From: Maylandia zebra
Taxonomy: Eukaryota; Chordata; Actinopteri; Cichliformes; Cichlidae
DNA: 64,000 nucleotides
Reading direction: 5' to 3'
Assembly: GCF_041146795.1 (NCBI RefSeq)
Contig: NC_135187.1
Location: 20,377,056-20,441,055, forward strand
How positions within the stretch are numbered: the first letter of the stretch is position 1; every line of letters starts with the position of its first letter. The notes under the pieces were generated by a model. The model searched no databases, was not told the origin of the DNA, and was given only the letters and a program-made list of their open reading frames with translations. A program made the translations under genes and the position numbers. Below are positions 2,227 to 60,975 of the stretch, in pieces.

Positions 2227-3452
2227 TCAAAAACGGGGAACACCGGGGGTAAGTGCTGGAAGGGCGTAAGTGAGGCCACTGCTCTGCGGGCTGGTAAACA
2301 AAGGGACAGCTCCCGGGTGAACCTGGAGCGAGGGAACAGAATACACAGGTATCCGTTTGACGGGTGTAGTAGTTCCATCAGCAGTGGCCCAGTGGTGTGT
2401 GCTGCCCCCTCCTGTGCAGACAGGAGAACATCCAGCTGAAGCTTGTAGGATGAGATGCTGATCTGTGTCCCAGCCGAAGCACCTTTTTGTCCCAGTTAGT
2501 CGCTGTGTAGGCTGAGTAAAGTGCTCCACCCGGACTGGCAGACTGAGTGTGGGAGTGTAGGCTTGAGCAGAGGTGAAGTCTCTCTTCAGGATTGAGTCAA
2601 TAGAGAAAGGGCCATTAAACTTCACCTCAGGTTTGATCTGAGCAGTACTGCGTGGTGCGGGCTCTAGAGAGTGGAGAGGCCTAGGCGGACAGCTCAGGTT
2701 CTTGGTCTCCAGTCTGGAGACCAGAACAGGGAAGAGATGGAGAATTTCCAAGAAGTGTTCATGCACCATCTCTGTTGTTATCTCCCTGCAGTCCAGCATC
2801 CAGTACACAAGCTCACGATTCATTGTGCCCGGAACTAGAATCTGAAAAGCAAACAGTACACGAGTTATATTTACAGCCCTTTGTGTGTTTGATTTAAATA
2901 AATTTTGGAAAAGATGCTTACCTTGATGAAACATTTGTAACCTGTTAAATACCAACTGATGTTGTTGTAAGCATTCCTTTCATCCTTATCAATCACTGAA
3001 ATCTTGTTTTTCATCTATAAGAACATCAAGTGGAAGGCTTTAAAATGGAAACTTGTGTTTCATATTGGGTGTTTGCATTTATCATAACAGCAGCAACAAT
3101 AAACACCACACTTATTTCTTACCTGAGTAAAAGTCAGCATCTTATGTGGAGAATACTGGAGAAGGATGGCAAGCTTAGCCAGGTAAGTGGTATTTTTGCT
3201 ACAGAACGCACTCAGAGGGTTAGATAGATCAGTCAGAGATTTGTCATCTCCAGACTTCTCATCTTTGTCCTGCATCTTCTTTGGAGAGTCAAGTCGAGTC
3301 CCTTTCAGTGTCGTCATAAACTTTACCAGTTTGCACCTGAAGCGGTCAGCTCTGGAACAAAAAGGGGATTTCAGGGTGGACAACTTCAGGCAAATGAGCA
3401 TGTTTTTATAAGATGATAAACCAGGTCCACAAGTGCTGGAGTCTGGCTCCAT
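2227..3452 (-). CDS. FoxH1/FAST-like divergent forkhead protein, gene A
   Basis: A three-exon gene on the minus strand: coding exons 3452-3123, 3014-2922 and 2841-2227, all with GT-AG borders and continuous phase, giving up to 345 aa. Exon 1 ends with forkhead helix 1 (YLAKLAILLQYSPHKMLTFTQ region). Exon 2 carries the recognition-helix region ending in YLTGYKCFIK. Exon 3 opens with wing residues (NRELVYWMLD) and continues into a long proline-rich tail. The tail holds KFNGPFSIDSIL and VKRIPVYSVPS, both shared with gene B at 7.2 kb. The canonical forkhead core RHNLS is replaced by SWYLT, so normal DNA contact is doubtful. ATG codons at 3317 and 3275 are alternative starts. The 3275 start gives an N-terminus about as long as that of gene B. 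FoxH1/FAST membership (Nodal/activin-Smad cofactors) is my best guess from overall architecture; another forkhead class is possible. Confidence 0.72.
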
Positions 3453-3454
3453 GC

Positions 3455-3497
3455 TGAATGTTTCAATGAAGTTTATTAAACTTCATTGAAACATTCA
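3455..3497. repeat. Perfect 21-bp-arm palindrome
   Basis: Arms at 3455-3475 and 3477-3497 are exact reverse complements around a single T. The left arm begins TGAATGTTTCAATGAAG. It lies two bases upstream of the most distal ATG of forkhead gene A, so it falls in its 5' UTR or core promoter. Confidence 0.85.
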
Positions 3498-4850
3498 TAA
3501 ACATTTAATATTAAACTTTTCATTTACAGAACTGTTAAAACTTCAGACCTCAACCAAATCAGCAAAATTAGACTAAAAGGAAAACACAATTTTTTGCCAT
3601 TAGTGTAACACTGAAATTGTGCAAATAACTCAAATTCTTCTTGATAAGAAAAAACTAACTTGAAGTAATTTGTCTTGTTTTGAGGAATGTTTAATTTTGC
3701 TATGACTTAAGTGTCCAGTAACATGAACTTAAAACCTGGCAAAAATGTGTTGAGTAAATTAAATTGTGAACAGAAACTGCATTGAAATGCTCTGGTTAGA
3801 TTGTAACACTCTTTTTGTCTTCGCCACGTTGCGTCGCCTCAGAAGTAGCCAACCTTTTAATTAAATACAAACCTAGCAGCACAGAACTCACTTTGAAAGT
3901 TGTTTCAACGTAGAGGAACAGCCTTCCAGCAGCTGAAGGTTAATTTCAGAAAATCTTCCCCTCACCTATAGTCGTTTCCCCTTACACTTAGTTTAGTTTC
4001 TAAAGTTGATTTGAGACACACCACATGCACGCTGGTGGTTCAATTACACAGAATACATAATCGAGTAAAGTTGTCAAACCAATAAGCAATCTATTCACAT
4101 GCTAACAGTACAATTTACTGCACCTCTCATTTAAAGTCAAACCAGCAGCCTTTTGCTCCACAGTCGTTATTTAAATCAACGACCCCTTTTCAGATTCCTC
4201 CACCCATAACCTGCACTGAAAGCAGGATTACAGCTTTACTCTGGTGGATGGTTGTAAGGCTGCAACCCTGACCCATGTGTTTTCACTTGTCTCTGATTAA
4301 AGGTGTGCTATTCAGCTGCTCTGGGGTCTGGTCCAAGGAACAGACTCACCAAGGGATCTGTAAAACCCTGCTGACCCTCAAGATTTCCACATGTATTTTA
4401 GAAAAGATAAAAAAGATAATTTGGAGAAAACAAGCTTACACATCATACAGCATCATACACAGACCAATTCTGATACAGTTATTCAGAGAGGGACTGAAGC
4501 ATTGGGGGAAACAATAAGAGGCAATAAAATATGTCCTTCTGTTGTGAAAGAGCAATAAAAAAGGGTTTCTACTAATACAAAGTGCAAATTCTCAGCTGAC
4601 TAATTCATGACATTTCTTAGAGTTATTCCTTTATTAATAACAAAGAAGGTTTTTAAGACAGACTCATCTTCACTGGTATAACCTGAGGTCATTGTTTCAG
4701 GTATTTCATAGTCATACATCCTTGTCCACACAACCCAGCCAAGGTGCTGATTGTGGTTAATTTGAATAAATATACACTGAATTTAGATCTGAATTTAGGT
4801 GAAAATGTTTATCCAGGAGCTACTTTTACCATATTCAATTAAATGTAGCT
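3498..4850. other. Intergenic region between divergent forkhead genes, left part
   Basis: AT-rich sequence with no supported ORF, RNA gene or clear repeat. It is part of the 3.7-kb spacer between the two divergently transcribed forkhead genes and may hold their promoters, but I cannot place any. Confidence 0.35.
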
Positions 4851-5099
4851 TTATTTATTATAGCAATAACAGAAAGAAGCTAAAAAGGACAAAACTCTGG
4901 GGAACTTTGTGACTACCACATTTCTTTTAACACCCACAGTGTGTCCTAATCGCTGCACCAAATCTTTGTGATTGGTGGAATCAAGTGCTGCACTGAGGTC
5001 TAACAGGACGAGCACAAAGTTGAGTCCACTGTTAAAGCCCATAGGAATATAATTTGTAACCTTTATTAGTGCTGTTTCTGGGGTGTTGATTAATTTCAA
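4851..5099 (-). mobile_element. Non-LTR retrotransposon RT fragment (CR1/Rex1-like)
   Basis: The minus-strand reading frame contains SGLNFVLVLLDLSAALDS followed by TNHKDLVQRLGHTVGVK. This matches the reverse-transcriptase block A motif of CR1/Rex/Jockey-type LINEs, usually L(D)LSAAFDTVDH.ILL.RL. The catalytic aspartate neighbourhood is altered (AALDST for AAFDTV). Only about 80 codons remain, with no YADD block, so this is a dead fragment. Confidence 0.65.
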
Positions 5100-5197
5100 C
5101 TAACATATATTCATCCAGCTATTACAAGGTCTCTGAAAGGCCAAGTAAATCACTGTGTTGATCAATTATTAAATCATATTAACACAAACTTAGACTG

Positions 5198-6069
5198 TGT
5201 CACGGTCCTGGGTCATTTGACCCAGTGTATTACGTTTTCTTATATTTTGATATTCATTGTTTATGTATAAGTCTCATTTAGTAATCTAAGCTCATTTCTA
5301 TTTTGCCTTCCTTGCCCTGTTATACTTTATTATCTATTAGATTCTCCTTGTGTCTTCACCCCTTGTGTTTGTCTTCCGTGCCCTTCATGTGTTTCAGTAA
5401 TGTCGTTGTCTCCCATCTTCTCCTCTTGTTTACATGTTTTCCCTCGTGCTCCTTTCCGCCCGTCATGTGTGTTTTTCCGCAGCTATGTTCTGTTTTGGTT
5501 ACTGTATGTCTGTCTCATCTCCAGTACCGTTGTTTCCTCTGTGTGTTTATAGTGCATGTTTTAGTCTGCCATGTGTTTCATGTCTGCGTGTTCCATGTTG
5601 TCTGCCTCTCATTATGTTTCCTGTTTTATTGTGAAGAATCTGGTGTTTCCATGTTCAGTTTCTAGTTTCACTTCCACTGTGGCATCATTATGTTCAAGCT
5701 AATCAGCTTTTTCCACCGTGTCTTTCCACTTCCCCTGATCACCTAAATGTGTGTATTTAGTCCTTGTCTGTTTGTCCTGCTATTCTGCCATGCTCTCCAG
5801 GGTTTTCATGTATTCATGCTAAGTCGTCACATTTCAGGTTTTTCCTGTCAGGATTTCCATGTTCATGGTTTTTTATGTTTAGCCTTAACCTAAACTGGGT
5901 GAACTAAGTGTTTAGTTTTGCCTTTGCAACTTGTTTCATGCAGCTAAAACCAGCCTTTAATAAATGGCTTGCTTTCAGTTAATTTTAAGTTTGTTTCTAC
6001 ACTTTGTTTTGTCTGTATTTGCGTCCTCTATTCTCCACTCCACACAGTCTGCATCTACTGACTGTAACA
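5198..6069. mobile_element. Candidate dispersed element with short imperfect terminal repeats
   Basis: The segment starts TGTCACGGTC and ends GACTGTAACA, which are inverted ends with two mismatches in ten. Inside is a strongly T/C-biased plus strand resembling non-coding tails of fish repeats. The open frames in this stretch are compositional artefacts. No flanking duplication is obvious, so both the element limits and its class are uncertain. Confidence 0.3.
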
Positions 6070-7147
6070 TAATTTTTAATACTCCACCTTTAATTTATTT
6101 AGGTGTAGTTCGGGGTATTATGAGTCTTTCTTTGTGAATTTTGAATGTTTAATTTGTTTTAACTTTTGTTTCTATGGTGTAGTCTCTATGGTGATGAGGT
6201 TTGGGGACAATGACAGGAGGAGAGAGAAATATTATATTAGATAATATTCTAAATGTCAAAGATAATAAATTGAATGGATTGCACAGCAGTGCACCATTTA
6301 GCACTGTTGCCACATGTTGGGAAGGTTCCAGGTTAAAACCTTAAGGCAGTCTGTGTTGTGTTGACATGTATAATAGGTTATTTGTTAATTCAAGATTTGT
6401 GAAAAATAGTGTGAAATGTTGTCTGTCTCCTTGTCTCGGCTCTGTAAAGGTATGGAAACTGCCCTGGAAGAAGCACCCCTCTCACACAGTGACAATAGGG
6501 ATAAGCAGATGACTGTTATAATTATTAGTATTAAGAAAAGTTATTTAATAGCGTTAACATAATCTTTGTCATCTAACATGAATTCATGTAGAAATAAAAA
6601 CTGTTAGTGCTGAAGAAATCTTTTGAGTGCACTGACCTAAATGTGTCAGAGGCCCAGACTTTCTTCCCACCCGAGTCGTAAACCGCTGGAATGTAACTTT
6701 ATACTCTTTCTAGTCACATTCAAATTAGACACACTGTTTGTGATAGTGAGCCATTTTAACTAATGAATAGCAGTGACAGCGATATCACCTCACCCACACA
6801 GCCTCGGTCTTCCAGTGATTTTTATATTTGTTAACGAGGAGGGTTGTTTAAGCCTCTAAAGATGTAGCCTTCAGCAAACTTTGATTCAAACATCCATCAT
6901 AGACGGTCTCTACTTGATGTCTTGAACAAGAAGGCCTCAAATCAGTAAGAAAATTAAGAAATCTCCTAAAGCATGAACATGGACAACCTGATGGCCTTAT
7001 TCACATTTAGGATTACCGCAGTGGCTGCTCCTCCAACATTAACGACTCATCTTCACATGAAAAGGCGATCGTCAGGAACACCCTAATGAATTGTTCCAGC
7101 AAGACATATAGCCTGGGCTGACCACTTCAGGGACACATCATCACCAA
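6070..7147. other. Intergenic, upstream of forkhead gene B
   Basis: No ORF, RNA gene or repeat was recognised. The last few hundred bases are the likely promoter and 5' UTR of the plus-strand forkhead gene starting at 7202. I see no clear TATA box or CpG island. Confidence 0.35.
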
Positions 7148-7201
7148 GTGAGGACTGCGACAACACTCTCCTGTGCAGAGCTTTACTCTCCAGCAAACGA
7201 G

Positions 7202-8616
7202 ATGGAGAACCAGACAGGGAACTTGGGCAGTCCGTTGTCTCTCTCGGATCCGGCCAGCAGTGCTCAGAAGGCTCTGCTCAGCAACACCACCACCTACCTG
7301 GCTAAGATTGCCATTGTTCTTCATGATGCTCCAGACAAGATGCTCACCTTTACTCAGGTAACAAAGATTCAGAATTACAAAGCTATTTGCACTCTGCACC
7401 CTTTTTTTCTTCGCTATCATGTTGATTGCTGCTGTACACGGCCTGTGTGTGCTGATGTAAGCAGGAAACAGAAGGGTGGTTGCTTGCAACCAGCAGTAGG
7501 AAATGCTATAAAAAAGAGAGTGCAATGGCAAGAAACTAGACCAGAAATTTGTTTGCTTCAAAATGAAAGTAGAACTGGAAATAGGCAAAGAGTAGCAATA
7601 AAGCTGCATGTAAATAAAACAGACGAGAGGTCGTGGATTGGCTTTTTTTCCCTCCCAATCAGTCAGACAGGAAAGGTCATTTTTTTTCTAAATACCTCAT
7701 GAGGAGAATCTAAAAACATAAGATAGTGGGGATTTGAAATTGCTATGCTCAACAGTAATGTCTTTCACATGTCAAGCACTAACCTGCATTGTGATGTATG
7801 TGCAGCTGATGGACAAGCTGACCCTGTTCTTCTCTGAGGATCAAAAATCTATTGAGAACAACGTCAGAGTTTGTTTATCAACAAACAAATGTTTTGTCAA
7901 GGTAAGATTTTACATATTTAATAAATGATGTTGTAAGAACTACTTCGAGAAGCAAGTTTCTGTTCAGTTGACTGAGATATTTTTTTCAGGTTCCAATTGT
8001 GCCATATTCACTCAATAGTAAGAGAAACTACTGGAAGTTGGACTTGACTCAGATCACAGCGAAGATGATGCGCCGGCACTTTAGAGGCATCCTGCAGCTC
8101 TTCCCCGATCTGGCCTGCAAGATGCAAAAGGAGAATCTGAGCAAACAATCGCAGCATTGCGCAACTCCCAGCTCCCATGAACTTGAAGCTCGCAGATCTG
8201 CTCGTATCCAGCGTGAGGTGAAGTTCAGAGGTCCTTTCTCCATTGATTCCCTCCTAAAAACTGATGAACACTCTGCTCAGAACCCCGGAGCTTCTCCTCT
8301 CTCTGGTGTTCCTCTCAGAGTGGAACAGCCGCCTTATTATACACCGTCCAAACAAGCTGGAACAAAGAGAAGCTTCAGCTGCGACTCTCGGGAGTCTCTC
8401 GCCCTAAAAACTGCAGCTGTAACTTCCCCCATCTACTTAGCTGATGGCAGAGGTTATTTTGGATGTGGAGCTGTTCACCCCATCAAGACGATGCCTACTT
8501 ACCCTGAGCCCACAGCCTTCCCCAGACCCAGTGCCTCTTATTACGCCACCCCACATGGCAGTTATGCAACATCTGTACCAGCATTCATGCATGATGCTCG
8601 AGGTTTTTGGTTGTAA
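7202..8616 (+). CDS. FoxH1/FAST-like divergent forkhead protein, gene B
   Basis: A three-exon gene with coding exons 7202-7357, 7806-7901 and 7990-8616 (GT-AG, phase 0 throughout), 292 aa. Residues 32-112 form a shortened forkhead domain: helix 1 YLAKIAIVLHDAPDKMLTF, then LMDKLTLFFSEDQKSIENN, the recognition segment VRVCLSTNKCFVK, and the wing KRNYWKLDLTQIT. The invariant histidine of the forkhead RHNLS core is missing (VRVCLS). The tail holds KFRGPFSIDSLLK, VPLRVEQPPY, GTKRSF and IKTMPTYPEPTAFPR; equivalents occur in gene A and in the remnant at 10.3 kb. The ATG at 7202 was chosen because it gives a short N-terminus like that of gene A; an upstream non-ATG extension to 7148 is not credible. 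The gene points away from gene A. It is probably a FoxH1/FAST-related transcription factor; class and function are inferred. Confidence 0.78.
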
Positions 8617-10200
8617 TCCTTCTCCCCACCCTCTGTTTCTCCCTCCCTACATCTCTCCTCTTCTGTGCTCAGTCATTTGTAGATGCCTCTGGATTTGCGG
8701 TTACCAGCAAACCACTCACCTGGAATATTTAAGAAACAGTTTCTCCCCTTGATTTTCACTAGGTTGTTCTGCCCTCTCTAGCGGTCACGTTTGAAGCTAG
8801 GACAGGGACAGAAAACAGGCAACTTCTCGTCTCCAGGAAGCTCCTGGTGTGTTGTCTGCTCAGTAGGATTTACCCAGTACCCACTTCGACTTAATTCGAC
8901 TTTGATTCAGAAACCTTGGATTTCTTCCCTGCCAGCCCCGTCATCCGTGAGCCTTGTAGCTCTGAAGGTAACCCCTTTGCCAAATTTCCATGTTGTAAAA
9001 AATCCTTTGAACTGCTCCAGTCTGTGTTTAGATCTTTCTGCCCTTATGAAATCATTACATTCTCAAGATTGTGCCCTGAACTCTGCCTCTCTTGATGTAT
9101 GTGTACCTGATGCAGAGGATTGTGGGTACAATTCTCAGGAAAAGGCAGGATAAGCTAGCTGGACATTGTGGTAGCGGGCATATTTTACTGTATTGTAAAT
9201 ACTATGTTGTGTTACTATATTTTTTTGTTCTTCACTGTACAAGTTACAAAGTATAATTATTAGGGGAATTGTAAACCATTGTTTTGAACATGGCATGTGT
9301 AGTGTACGGGAATGCCCAGCTCCCTAGAATGTCCTATGGAGAATAGTGATTGAGAATAGTGGGCGTATTAAAGGGAAGGTGCTTGGGTAACAAAAGGCCA
9401 TCCACCAGGTGTAGCAGGCTTTTGTCTTGCTCAGCGTACGGGTTGATTCAACACAGTCCTCTAAGCTATGTGCAGTAAATGTCTCTTCTAAGGCTACATG
9501 AGTCACTATAGGTGATTAACTGATAACTTGGGGGCTGTATGATTTTCTTGAAGGTATGTCATAAACTTTAAGGAAAAAAAACAAGACAAACTAGTGTCAG
9601 TAACGTACCATTGTGTTTGTATTTATACAGATCAATGTTAAAGCACTCGGGAGTCTTGACCTGTAGCTGCCTGAACTATGGGGAGTTTGTTAATTATTGA
9701 ACATGTTTGATGCATTAATGCAATTCAAATTCAATTTTTTTTTTCATGTTTGTTGTGTTAATGCTGTGCATGATTCTAACTGTTGTTTCTTTTGAAATTC
9801 CAGTCAAGTGTCGAATATTTTCCACTGGAATTTTTTTTTAACTGTTTCTTTTTCCTTTTTTTCTGTGTTATTTTAGTGATTGTGCCAGTGATATTTTAAC
9901 CCTGGTCATGCTGTCCCTTGTAGGTTACCTGGGAGCTTCTCTGGGAGTAGTACTGAAGTAAATGAAGTAGCTGAATTGTGTGCAGTAGAGTGGGATCACA
10001 GAATTAGAGTGTAGTAACTGAATAGTGCTCCACACTGTGCTGCAACCTCTGTCTGTCTCCTTGTTTCTTAACTGAACTTTTTAGTCGAACCAACCTGTTT
10101 TTTTTTGTTGGGGGTTTTTGTTTTTTGTTTTTTAAAAAAAAAAATTCATTGATATTTTTTTGCATAGTTAATAAAGCTGCTTGTAACAGCAACTGTAGAT
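8617..10200 (+). other. Probable 3' UTR and flank of forkhead gene B
   Basis: No coding feature follows the stop at 8616. The stretch is T-rich and contains an AATAAA at 10170-10175, the first good plus-strand poly(A) signal I noticed downstream. If that signal is used, the 3' UTR is about 1.6 kb. Open frames here (for example 8791-9153) show no recognisable protein. Confidence 0.35.
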
Positions 10201-10279
10201 TTCCAAATGCAGTGTTTGTCTTAATTTCAAAAAAGAAGTCACCTCTTGGCAGGGCCACACATGCATCATTCTTCTGCCA

Positions 10280-10627
10280 ACCATTGCAGCACCACTAAGC
10301 TCTCTGGACTCCCAGAGCTATCTGTTCAGTTCAGTGGTCCTTTTCTCCAACGACTCTGCTCAGGACACCAGAGCTTGTCTTCGCTCCAGTGTTCCCCTCA
10401 GAGTGGAGCAGCAGCCTTATGCATCCTACACACAGGTCCCAACAAAGGGAAGTCTCCTGGCCCTTCCTCCTGCAGACTATAAGTGGAAAACCTTAGTCTA
10501 CACAGCAGGGGTTCAGCTAATCCAGAGTCTCAAGAGGATACCTGTGTACCCTGAGCCCAGTGTCTTCCCCAGAGCCCGCGCCCCTTATTTCACCAATCCA
10601 CACAGCAGCTATACAACTCTGTACTAA
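10280..10627 (+). pseudogene. Third FoxH1/FAST-like copy, last-exon remnant
   Basis: This plus-strand stretch aligns with the tail of forkhead gene B. VQFSGPF matches VKFRGPF, but about 28 bases corresponding to the SIDSLLK segment are deleted and the frame shifts. The other frame then reads SVPLRVEQQPYASYT and later SLKRIPVYPEPSVFPRARAP, ending YFTNPHSSYTTLY and a stop. No forkhead-domain exons are visible upstream in the 1.6 kb to gene B. It is a truncated, frameshifted duplicate. An expressed terminal exon spliced from elsewhere is a less likely alternative. Confidence 0.75.
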
Positions 10628-13600
10628 CAATTACCCAGGATGCTTTAGTCTCTTTAGTGTTTATGTCTGCAATTCCCTCACTCTTTATCATTATTACATA
10701 CTTCAGCTTCTCTATACAGCATGCACAATTCACATACTTCCTCCTAAAGTTATCCCTTTGACCTTGACTCTCTGCATCACGGATACCTGGAAGGTGTGCT
10801 TATGACTACACTTTAAAATGCAGGAAAAAAATACACAATATCTTAGGCTTCTCAGCATATAAATCCTTTTATTTTGCTGACAGAGTGACAACATGCACCC
10901 CACCCCCAAATTTTATTTTTTTGAAAACAGACATCACAAGGATTTAGACTGATTACAAGACTCAAGAGAGGAGACACAGCAGGTACCAGGCATTAGTCCA
11001 ATGATGACAGACTGGCTGATTAGCGGCTCAGAGTTGGTCCATCAAAGTGGGCTGAGTGCAGGCGTGAACAGTATGGAGGGCCACAAGTGCCAAAAGAATA
11101 TAAATAAATACATCATTAAATACTAAATGTGCCATTAATAAATTAAAATTGAAAATAACTAATTAAATATAGAAATGATTAAATATGAATTAATTTCATT
11201 TTTACAATATTTGAGAACTTATTTCCAATTCTATTCATCAATAACATATCTAAATATTTATTTAATTATTATTATTTTTTAATTCTTTTTGGTACTCAAT
11301 AATTAAAAAAGGACCTTCTGTGTGTGTTTGAAGTTGGATAACGCTGGTAAACTCACACTTTTTAAGCCCAAAACTAACTAACAAAATGAAATAACCATAC
11401 TATTTTTTAATAAAGAAGAAATATTTATTGATCCAAAGACAGGTTTTATCTATCTTGGTATCACCAGTACTGGTTTTATTTTGTTGTATTTATCCGCGAC
11501 ACCTTAAAGGCCGGTCCCTGAAAGTATTGTCGGACATAAACCGGTTTGTGGTGCAAAAACACTCTAGTCTGAATGACTGAATTGACTTTGGACTCCTGAA
11601 GGCCACAAGGATGATTGTCAAATTGTGGAGAAAAATTGAGGTATCTTTTAGGAATAGATGAAAGTGTTAACTTGTTGTATTACACTGGATGAAACTGACT
11701 TATATAATCAGAGAGCTACTTATTACTTTTAGCAAATTTTCAGAGGTAACTGCTGTGTGTGGGTTGGAGAAATGCAGAGGGCAATGGAGGGGGAAGGGTC
11801 CGGGCACAGGCGTCCCCTTGGTGGGCTCCACAGCTTCACAGCAATGGGTTCCTTGTGTCCTTCCATCTGCTGAGGGAATAAGGTTCACTTATTCCCTCAG
11901 CAAACTTTCCCGGCTGAAGTTTGAAGGAGCAGAGGCTCCTCAGAGTCCCAGATGAAGCGCCACGCTGCCCCGACTTGTCTGTGTGTGGGCCTCGAACAGA
12001 GCTTGCTTTGAAGTAACAATGCTGTGATCTTTGCTGTGATCTGACTAGGAGTGACTGGAGTCAAGTTTCCCACAGCTCTCTCCAGTGATTTTTGGGAGCA
12101 CTATACCTGGGGGGCGGGGGGGAGATCCAGTATACTTCAGCTAATACAACCAGGTCTTGGTTTTGTTGTTGTTTTTTAAGCAGTTTAAATAAGAGTTAAT
12201 ATAGTATAAAAAAATAGATAAACAGATAGAGACTCTAAGACGCATTATCAGAGATTAGCAGCTTCATCTTGTCTACTACAAAATACCAGACTGAAAATGA
12301 AAGCCTTGAAATAGTTCTTAAAGATAACTGAGATAATTAAAAGTTTCTTTTAACTCCCACCAGAGTTAAAGTTTGCATCGAGCCTGCAGCATTTTGGAAG
12401 GCTTCCAGGTGGGGGGGGTGCTCTCTCTGAGCAGACTTAGCTGATACACCAGAGCTCCAAACTTCCTTATCTGCATCATGTTTCTTGAAGAGTGTAATTC
12501 CACAGAGTACTGCAATTACAACCTTGCTCAGTGTGCTGATGTGGACCTTACGCAGTAAACTGTGCGTATGTCCTTTGGAACAACAGGGGGATATTAAAGC
12601 TTGGAGACAGCTCAACATTCCCATGTTTTTTTTTTTGTCAATTTAAGTTACTTGTAAATAGAAATGATGTGATTGGAGTTCCACCTCCATTAATTATAAA
12701 AGAACAAGTCTCTGTTCTGTTCATATTTTATATTTACTTAATATGCACGTTGGAAAAAGCCAGTGTGGTGGTTTAAAAAAATGCATCAACATTTAACATA
12801 AAACAAGTGACAAAGCCATTATGAGCCACTTGACTAGATCTATTATTGTCACAGGGTTAACAACTCTGCAATAAACCCCATGGCTGATTTTTTGGGTTGT
12901 TACTGCCACATAGTACCTGAGCAAACACGCTATGTTACATTTTCTCTCTCCCTGTCACACAAACATGCAGACACACACAGTGTGTAAGTGCAAAAAATAA
13001 CATTGTATAGGAATAATTAATATCAATATCATCACTCCAGCTTTCAAGCAGCACCATAGACAGCAGGGGTCGGTGAAATGGACAAAGTTGCTTAGGTAAT
13101 GACCTCAAAACAGATTTAGCCTCTCAAAAGTAACAAAGACAAGTGTAATGTTTGTAACCATATAGGACAAAAGAAAGACGCCCATTAACAGGTCCTCACA
13201 GACTGCCTGGACGTGGTCGCCGTATAACAAGCTCACTCATCAATCGTTTTCAGTGGGCCAGGGTCTACATATATCACACGCATATTACAGTACGAGTGCG
13301 TATTTTCAACATATAAATTTAACGATGTTTCAATCCTTTAGAAAAGCAAAGACAAAAGCCGTCAGAGCTTCACATTTCTGGCCTTTGCTCTGCAAAGTCA
13401 CTGGCAGCACTGCTTAGATCCACAGTCCAGGCAGTATACTCATCTTGCTGATAAAGTGTTTTGTAGTTGATGTCAACAGGTTCCCACAAATCACAGCAGG
13501 GTCAGGAAGTACAAGTGAGCTATCTTGGTGTTCATGATTTAAAAAGATGCCCACTGTCATTTTTTAATCAGTGGAATGTAACATAATAGAGAACATTTTT

Positions 13601-15868: not shown

Positions 15869-24767
<8,899 letters not shown>

Positions 24768-39163: not shown

Positions 39164-41419
39164 CATACTGAAAAATCTTTTTTTTAATTTTTTTTTTTTT
39201 TATAAATTTTATTTTCAGTCACAGCAGCATGTTAACAACAAAACATTGAACATACAGTAGTTTGCTGTTCAGTATTTACAATACCCCAAAAGATAACAGA
39301 AATAGAGAAGGAAAAAACAAACAAACAAACAAACCAAAGAAACCCCCACAAAACAACAACAAACAAACAAACAACAACAAACAAATAGAAAAATAAAATG
39401 CATAAGGGACATTCAGCGTACAGTTAGCTATGATAGCGATATAGAGATATGGTATCTGGTCATGATAAGGTGGTCATTTTAAATGTTTCCATGTACATCA
39501 AGAATGGCTGCCATGCCCTAAGAAATTTGGTGGTTGAACCTGCCAGTGTATATCTCATCTTTTCTAAATGTAAAAACCTCATGAGCTCCGCAAGCCACTG
39601 TTCATGTGTGGGAGGAGCTTCCTGCTTCCATCTTAAAAGTATAAGGCGCCTTGCGATAAGTGAAGCAAAGGCAATAGAATTCGAATAGCATTTTGGCAAA
39701 GTGATGTCTTGAGGTATCACCCCAAAGATAGCCGTTAGAGCAGAAGGATCATATTTAACGTTATACATCTCTGACAGAGTGTTAAATATAGACACCCAAT
39801 AGATATGAAGATTGGGGCATGTCCAAAAGGTATGAAGGAGCGAACCTGTTTCTGCTTTACATCTGTTACACAGAGGGTCAGCTCCTGGATAGAACTTGGC
39901 TAACTTTTCCTTGGAGATATGTAATCGGTGTAGGACCTTAAATTGAAGGAAGAAGAGTGTACCCTCTGGAGAAAAGATTGCCAGAGCTCATCTGTTATAG
40001 TCATCCCAAGGTCTTTCTCCCACTGTGCTTTAAGGATGAAGAGAGAAGGAGATTGAAGATCTAATAGTATAGCATAGATTTCTTTAATCGCCCCTCTCTT
40101 ATGAACGTTTATATTAATAATTTTATCCAAAGAAGTTTCCTCAGGTAGTTCCGGAAATGAAGGAAATCGACTCTTTACAAAGTGACGAATTTGTAAATAG
40201 CGGAAAAAATGTTGCCGAGGAACATTAAACTGCTTCAGGAGCTGCGTGAATGAGGCAAAAATCCCATCTACAAAAAGGTCTTTGATATTTCTAAGGCCAT
40301 TACTTTCCCATATTTTAAAGGCAGAGTCCATCATGGAGGGTGGGAACATATGGTTTGAGCAGATAGGTGCTTTAATTGACATTAAGTGTAACCCCAACCT
40401 TTTCCTACATTGCACCCAGATGCTGAGCGAGTCATACAACAAAGGGTTACGTTTATAGGTGTATAGTTCTAATGGGAGAGCTGAACTCAACAAAGCTGAT
40501 AGGCAAATTTTGCCACAATTGGATGACTCAATTTGGAGCCAAGCTGGAGTCTCTGTAGTAACATTACTCATCCAGTACAGCATATTACGAATATTTGCTG
40601 CCCAATAATAAGACTGAAAGTTTGGCAAGGCTAATCCACCCATTGGCCTAGTCCTCTGCATGAAATCTTTACGAATTCGTGGACTTTTGCCATTCCAAAT
40701 AAATGCAGCGATATGCTTATTCAGTGTTATAAAATACTTATTGGGTAAGTAGCATGGGATACATTGAAATAAGTAAAGGAACTTGGGAAGTATGTTCATT
40801 TTGATAGAATTAATGCGGCCAATTAATGACAGTGGTAAATTGTTCCACCTCTGAAGATCTGTCTCAGTATTTTTAAGCAGCGGGACAAAGTTTCTTTCAT
40901 AAAGATCTTTGTATGAGTGGGTAACCTTAACCCCCAGATAGGTCACATACCCTGATTTAACGTTAAATTGAAAACCTACCACGGAGAAGTGGGAAATAAG
41001 AAGAGAATAACGAATTTGTTCTAACACGTGCCATAGGTGAGGAGTAAAGTAACTGAATCCATGAAATGAAATTAGGGCCAAATCCAAATTTATGCAGAGT
41101 ATAAATCAGATAATCCCACTCCACCCGGTCAAATGCCTTCTCAGCATCGAGTAATAAGGCAATTTCAGGGGTTGTAGTTGACTTGGTGTGTAATATGTTT
41201 AAAAACCTGCGCAGGTTGAAAAAACCATGCCTACCCTTCATGAAACCTGTCTGATCTGGAGAAATTAACAATGGTAGATATTGCTCTAGCCTGAGAGCAA
41301 GTGTTTTTGACAGTATTTTTAAATCTACATTTAAGAGTGATATAGGACGATATGATGAACACTCTAATGGATCCTTATTTGGCTTCAATAGGAGTGAGAT
41401 GGTCATACTGAAAAATCTT
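39164..41419 (-). mobile_element. 5'-truncated L1-type LINE with 16-bp target-site duplication
   Basis: The duplication CATACTGAAAAATCTT occurs at 39164-39179 and 41404-41419. The element between is antisense to the copine gene. Its 3' end is the T-rich stretch at 39180-39215 (poly-A on the minus strand). On the minus strand, upstream codons include YRPISLLNVDLKILSK, LISPDQTGFMKGRHG and LLLDAEKAFDRVEWDYLIY, the L1-clade reverse-transcriptase blocks. After a frame change comes the L1 C-terminal part (LPLSLIGRINSIKMNILPK, AAFIWNGKSPRIRKD). The block that should hold GTRQGCPLSP and the catalytic F/YADD is missing at about 40975, so the copy is dead. Confidence 0.88.
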
Positions 41420-41601
41420 GAGGTGTGATATGAAAATTTGCTGTCACCTCTGGATATGTGCAACGCATGTGACAAGTGAGGCAGATTCTGCACGCCGCCC
41501 TCATACAGTGGATCTTGCTGAAGAAGTCTTCCACATCCACACTTCACTATCAGTGTCATCTGCTGTCAACTGGAACAGAGAGACATCTGCTCTTTCCCCC
41601 T

Positions 41602-43658: not shown

Positions 43659-43835
<177 letters not shown>

Positions 43836-43836
43836 G

Positions 43837-60975
<17,139 letters not shown>

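Follow-up and report, generated by a model that had tools for sequence, protein, structure and literature searches.

Two FoxH1-like genes of Maylandia zebra with a rewritten recognition helix and a retained putative eh1 motif

Helix 3 of the forkhead domain is nearly invariant because it is the helix that reads DNA, and the question raised by the locus described here is what two adjacent FoxH1-like genes of the cichlid Maylandia zebra may be doing when precisely this helix has been rewritten. The genes are divergently oriented, gene A on the minus and gene B on the plus strand, and occupy positions 2227-8616 of a 64,000-base stretch (contig NC_135187.1, 20,377,056 to 20,441,055, hereafter the window), which has a G+C content of 40.6% and is free of N. 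An earlier note on this DNA had singled them out as fast-evolving forkhead genes, and our gene models agree with its coordinates exactly. The explanation we favour, with a confidence just short of even, is that A and B are complete-frame members of a local birth-and-death cluster derived from FoxH1 and act as eh1-carrying repressors or modifiers; with the residues by which FoxH1 reads DNA changed, they probably serve another regulatory function than FoxH1.

To place the two proteins, they were compared with the Pfam forkhead family PF00250 (gathering cut-off 27 bits) and with the Fox proteins of solved structure. B passes the Pfam cut-off with 38 bits (expectation value, E=1.9e-9), whereas A remains below it with 13.1 bits (E=0.11), and the “unmistakable” forkhead scaffold of the earlier note therefore applies to B but not to A. 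Nevertheless we call A forkhead-derived because of its match to B (BLASTP, E=4e-54) and to FoxH1 (E=1.9e-5). Among the solved chains FoxH1 ranks first for both proteins, with 48.9 bits for B (next class FoxG1, 34.5 bits; 29 sequences matched) and 27.4 bits for A (next class FoxL2, 17.4 bits; 4 sequences matched), a ranking by match score rather than by tree that covers the Fox classes with solved structures. By sequence, then, A and B are FoxH1-like, in line with the affinity suspected earlier. Among the 46 columns that are invariant in three FoxH1 proteins, 21 are kept in B and 14 in A, while 10 carry an identical new residue in A and B and two a common gap; the loop between helix 2 and helix 3 is in both proteins three to four residues shorter than that of FoxH1. 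Because of the ten same substitutions and the shared loop shortening, A and B probably descend from a divergent FoxH copy that had already left the canonical FoxH1 sequence.

It is clear from the alignment to zebrafish FoxH1 that the DSVRHNLS core of helix 3 has been replaced in both genes, by NNVRVCLS in B and NNISWYLT in A, as had been noticed before, except that the Arg of the core is still present in B. According to the cited parts of the structural report, the major-groove readers of zebrafish FoxH1 are Asp143, Arg146, and His147, and Lys160 and Lys168 make the wing-1 contacts; the Asp is described as unique to FoxH1 and stands in place of an Asn that is common to 47 of 49 human FOX proteins at position i (PMC9701222). 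When these contacts were mapped (the numbering agrees with the letters at all named residues in range), the triad reads Asn-Arg-Val in B and Asn-Ser-Trp in A, and is thus the FoxH1 triad in neither. The two wing-1 lysines are Ile and Lys in B, which is half kept, and Val and Glu in A (the Val being Leu in a second alignment), making a total of 2/5 mapped contact residues kept in B (Arg146 and Lys168) and 0/5 in A. The wing-2 residues Gln187 and Asn188 fall within range in B alone, where His and Phe take their place; at the first Trp of helix 3, B has Ile and A has Ala. No counterpart of the N-terminal loop contacts Lys90, Tyr92, and Arg94 was evident by eye in either protein, these residues being outside the alignment range. 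The ancestral change probably included the Asn-Asn with which the reading stretch now begins in place of Asp-Ser, after which the Arg-His-Asn part would have diverged separately in the two genes.

Counted as K+R minus D+E, the aligned domain carries a net charge of +6 in the zebrafish and +7 in the human FoxH1, compared with +7 for B and +2 for A. With no mapped contact and this low charge, loss of DNA binding appears likely for A, and the “altered or lost” DNA binding of the earlier note can be divided accordingly between the genes, since B keeps two contacts and a FoxH1-like charge. The same residues bear on a reading in which A and B are altered-specificity factors, where the new helix-3 residues read a different site and the proteins are ordinary sequence-specific repressors working through eh1. 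We consider this somewhat unlikely for the pair: B, with its Pfam score above the cut-off, Arg146, Lys168, a charge of +7, and the Asn typical of Fox proteins at position i (PMC9701222, in the part cited), speaks for it, as does the marginal constraint on the wing block (see below), but the reading His has become Val and the first Trp Ile even in B, and A, with 0/5 contacts, a charge of +2, and Ala in place of that Trp, is a weaker case still.

As proposed earlier, A and B both have three exons and the same intron phases: all exons are divisible by three in length, and 4/4 introns are GT-AG introns of phase 0, giving proteins of 300 (A) and 292 (B) residues. Exon 3 is an open frame of 204 codons in A and 208 in B, and only 1 in 5000 base shuffles of each was free of stops. 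The start of gene B is delimited by an in-frame stop 31 codons upstream with no ATG in between, while the start codon of gene A is ambiguous, with further in-frame ATGs 28 and 45 codons upstream and with Met15 of A aligned to Met1 of B. A near-perfect palindrome of 43 bases (3455-3497, 97.7% inverted self-match) is located directly upstream of exon 1 of gene A. This inverted repeat and the ambiguous start codon could point to a gene-model or assembly artefact, but the same exon pattern and matching proteins were obtained from two independent loci, and we regard an artefact as highly improbable.

The earlier note also claimed that the two proteins differ greatly, and this is borne out, with 110/290 aligned positions identical (BLASTP). 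For quantification of constraint we compared 278 aligned codons, in which 344/834 bases differ, corresponding to a partly saturated synonymous divergence (dS) of 1.10 (NG86) or 1.60 (YN00). In 1000 simulations without constraint, which provide the expectations used here, the whole-pair residue identity averaged 0.330 and never exceeded 0.385, compared with the observed 0.399. Divided into six blocks, and with the ratio of nonsynonymous to synonymous differences per site (pN/pS) followed by its bootstrap range in brackets, the eh1 block had 17/24 identical residues against 11.0 expected (P=0.0015; pN/pS 0.30 (0.10-0.77)) and the wing 18/40 against 14.0 (P=0.0485; 0.50 (0.32-0.76)). The remaining blocks were helix 1 with 17/23 against 15.3 (P=0.19; 0.32 (0.11-1.06)), the middle with 10/27 against 8.1 (P=0.21; 0.56 (0.31-1.01)), the tail with 32/105 against 28.1 (P=0.16; 0.74 (0.58-0.97)), and the helix-3 exon with 9/31 against 11.1 (P=0.92; 1.06 (0.57-2.71)). 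The eh1 block is thus the part with the clearest constraint, and the recognition exon is unconstrained between A and B, or nearly so.

A Fisher test of the helix-3 exon versus the rest of the domain plus eh1 gave p=0.015, for a comparison picked post hoc and with rounded counts. In a sliding scan the helix-3 exon ranked 19 among 247 segments, with 18 others scoring at least as high, many of them in the C-terminal tail. We therefore do not regard it as the single fastest part, the tail being as fast, nor do we claim positive selection on helix 3, as its pN/pS is indistinguishable from absence of constraint. What is left of the “rapid divergence” of the earlier note is a recognition exon with a pN/pS around one, for which relaxation and positive selection cannot be told apart.

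Little constraint would also be expected if A and B were simply redundant FoxH copies on their way to loss, with frames that are by chance still open. The pN/pS close to 1 in the helix-3 exon and of 0.74 in the tail, the four of six blocks compatible with absence of constraint, and the two partial copies that adjoin A and B (see below) are what such a decay would leave behind. On the other hand, unconstrained change over the A-B divergence (dS above 1) resulted in a mean of 7.0 stops per copy, with a minimum of 0 among the 1000 runs, while both real frames and all four introns are intact and the eh1 block is constrained. On balance we find loss under way doubtful.

As in FoxH1, the putative eh1 motif of A and B is located C-terminal to the forkhead domain. 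FoxH1 of zebrafish and others is listed with an eh1 motif in the cited part of PMC1939712, and the FoxH1 EH1 is described, in the portion of PMC6664792 used here, as mediating Groucho/TLE-dependent repression. The earlier note mentions neither this motif nor the two partial relatives described below.

For the Smad-interaction domain (SID), with its FM and Smad-interaction motifs, the core PP-x-K was looked for and not seen in A or B. A PIKT is present at residue 248 of B, but the aligned place is PVKR in A and SLKR in the partial relative C, so we do not claim it as a Smad motif of the tail. The B tail, in a query with one letter altered, matched no solved chain at E<=10.

With these elements we propose that the forkhead domains of A and B would keep a folded FoxH-like core that no longer reads the FoxH1 site, A being most likely unable to bind DNA specifically and B perhaps binding it weakly or with a changed specificity. 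Through eh1 both proteins would recruit Groucho/TLE co-repressors, and since no canonical Smad-interaction core was seen, they would not be expected to bring in Smad2/3. They would then repress independently of the signal or modify FoxH1/Groucho complexes; the setting may be the ovary or the early embryo, in which foxh1 of fish acts, although for A and B this site is a guess. In the parts of the reports cited, foxh1 is strongly expressed in the tilapia ovary (PMC3643912), and a foxh1 mutation in fish is cited as arresting oogenesis (PMC9403048). A precedent may be found in zebrafish FoxH1 forms without SID, which according to the cited part of PMC6664792 act dominantly on miR-430 by interfering with miR-430 repression; as this effect needs the DNA-binding domain and not EH1, the precedent supports B more than A. 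A bolder version, which we think improbable, would make the cluster one of FoxH proteins without any forkhead sequence reading. They would serve as Groucho/TLE adaptors based on eh1 and lower the output of FoxH1 in the oocyte or early embryo, as standing genomic counterparts of the interfering FoxH1 constructs, with a recognition helix left free to change under relaxed or diversifying selection.

Several observations weigh against the favoured explanation of eh1-carrying repressors or modifiers. The dominant effect of SID-less FoxH1 was, in the same cited part, lost on mutation of DNA binding and did not need EH1 (PMC6664792), which tells against exactly this mode of action for an A that does not bind DNA. 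B retains Arg146, Lys168, and a FoxH1-like charge of +7. Only the eh1 block and, marginally, the wing exceed the unconstrained expectation among six blocks, measured over a partly saturated synonymous divergence, and as the other four do not, purifying selection is weak on most of the protein. The Smad domain was probed by the PP-x-K motif and by a library search that gave no matches, with PIKT present in B, and a simple pattern recognised no basic nuclear-localisation run in A or B.

The description of the locus as a pair holds for the two genes with complete open frames, but not for the locus as a whole. A tblastn search of the window with A and B gave no further complete copy at E<=1, but two partial copies outside 2227-8616, C on the plus strand and D on the minus strand, the latter extending from 12444 to 11743 when its weak exon-1 candidate is included (Table 1). 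C has 286/379 aligned bases identical to B, and we call it a remnant because within 9001-11000 neither exon 1 nor exon 2 of A or B found a match that exceeded shuffles and because the place of eh1 falls in a 24-base gap. The phase of the gaps was rejected as proof of a broken C, since 19/22 gaps against B are non-multiples of three, but so are 14/16 in the A-B control, where both frames are open. The tail frame of C (10199-10627, plus strand) is still open over 142 codons from stop to stop, and its KRIPVYPEPSVFP stretch resembles the tails of A and B. D has two stops within its tblastn alignment (E=0.001 with A), and its possible exon-1 remnant scored 40 in the Smith-Waterman comparison with A exon 1, equal to the shuffle maximum of 40. 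From sequence comparison, A, B, C, and D look like a birth-and-death cluster.

Table 1 Coordinates of the FoxH1-like genes, their motifs, and the partial relatives in the window.
Feature	Positions	Strand	Basis
Gene A exon 1, N-terminus to start of helix 2	3123..3317	-	Frame, GT donor, alignment with B exon 1; start ambiguous
Gene A exon 2 (helix 2-helix 3)	2922..3014	-	AG/GT sites, phase 0; FoxH1 match
Gene A exon 3: wing, eh1, tail, stop	2227..2841	-	AG site, 204-codon open frame
Gene B exon 1	7202..7357	+	ATG, GT donor, upstream in-frame stop
Gene B exon 2 (helix 2-helix 3)	7806..7901	+	AG/GT sites, phase 0; FoxH1 match
Gene B exon 3: wing, eh1, tail, stop	7990..8616	+	AG site, 208-codon open frame
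Gene A helix-3 core NNISWYLT (FoxH1 DSVRHNLS)	2943..2966	-	Alignment to zebrafish FoxH1
Gene B helix-3 core NNVRVCLS (FoxH1 DSVRHNLS)	7857..7880	+	Alignment to zebrafish FoxH1
Gene A putative eh1 FSIDSIL, residues 175-181	2587..2607	-	Motif search
Gene B putative eh1 FSIDSLL, residues 167-173	8236..8256	+	Motif search
Relative C, exon-3-like remnant closest to B	10263..10658	+	Smith-Waterman 199 vs maximum 41 in 60 shuffles
Relative D, exon-3 tail remnant	11743..12003	-	Smith-Waterman 89 (B exon 3), 69 (A exon 3); shuffle maximum 41 each
Possible exon-1 remnant of D (weak)	12363..12444	-	Smith-Waterman 46 with B exon 1; shuffle maximum 35

Between A and B a short open frame (4851-5099, minus strand) resembles a reverse transcriptase fragment by eye, with no Pfam match at E<=0.1. 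Further along the window, Armadillo-repeat exons are present at 17999-18364 and 19681-20046 (minus strand), the first of which matches beta-catenin with about 102 bits and plakoglobin with 86.5 bits; from this better match a beta-catenin gene neighbours the FoxH cluster and can be used as a synteny anchor. The window also contains the remains of a non-long-terminal-repeat retrotransposon (39460-41565, minus strand) in which 40966-41565 matches reverse transcriptase with 72.6 bits and is adjoined by further long open frames, a 176-base run of ATCT repeats (43659-43834), and a Copine exon at 60631-60975 on the plus strand (Pfam PF07002, 122.5 bits).

The FoxH family steers Nodal signalling and, in fish, oogenesis, and genes that keep the remainder of the domain and eh1 but have helix 3 rewritten would constitute a natural experiment on a Fox protein without canonical DNA reading. 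Such genes would also caution that annotation labels such as “forkhead” or “FoxH1-like” need not imply a DNA binder like FoxH1.

Fish genes are recorded in databases under the name “forkhead activin signal transducer 3-like”; A and B may belong to them, and their family may thus already be in the databases without having been studied. Among the open-access papers listed in the literature searches, no description of a cluster of helix-3-altered FoxH genes was found, and the FoxH1 literature on guppy and rohu, in the parts consulted, concerns ordinary FoxH1. Searches of viral contigs with the A/B alignment (130 stretches fitting the pattern) and of prokaryote and virus genome contigs with B (25 stretches) gave no relatives and are uninformative on animals.

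Among known systems, the closest is FoxH1 itself (FAST-1, schmalspur), the nearest solved forkhead sequence to A and B. According to the cited parts of the reports, ricefield eel foxh1 has three coding exons (PMC10531137), as do A and B, and FoxH1 carries eh1 after the forkhead domain (PMC1939712), again as in A and B. The differences are the missing Asp-Arg-His triad, the shorter loop between helices 2 and 3, the absence of a clear Smad-interaction core as judged from the PP-x-K motif, and the size, as A and B are considerably shorter than the 510 residues given for the eel (PMC10531137) and the 472 given for zebrafish (PMC1939712). Xenopus FoxH3 (XFast-3) is likewise a FoxH1 paralogue confined to some animals, but is said in the cited part of PMC1939712 to be without eh1 and is predicted there to be Smad-dependent only, unlike A and B with their eh1. 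Finally, zebrafish provides FoxH1 forms with damaged DNA binding or without SID, features that A and B appear to share (PMC6664792, in the part cited): sur m768, with a changed forkhead domain, and mid pr1 and FHD-GFP, both lacking the SID. The dominant effect of FHD-GFP required DNA binding and not EH1. These zebrafish forms are mutants or constructs, whereas A and B are standing copies in the genome.

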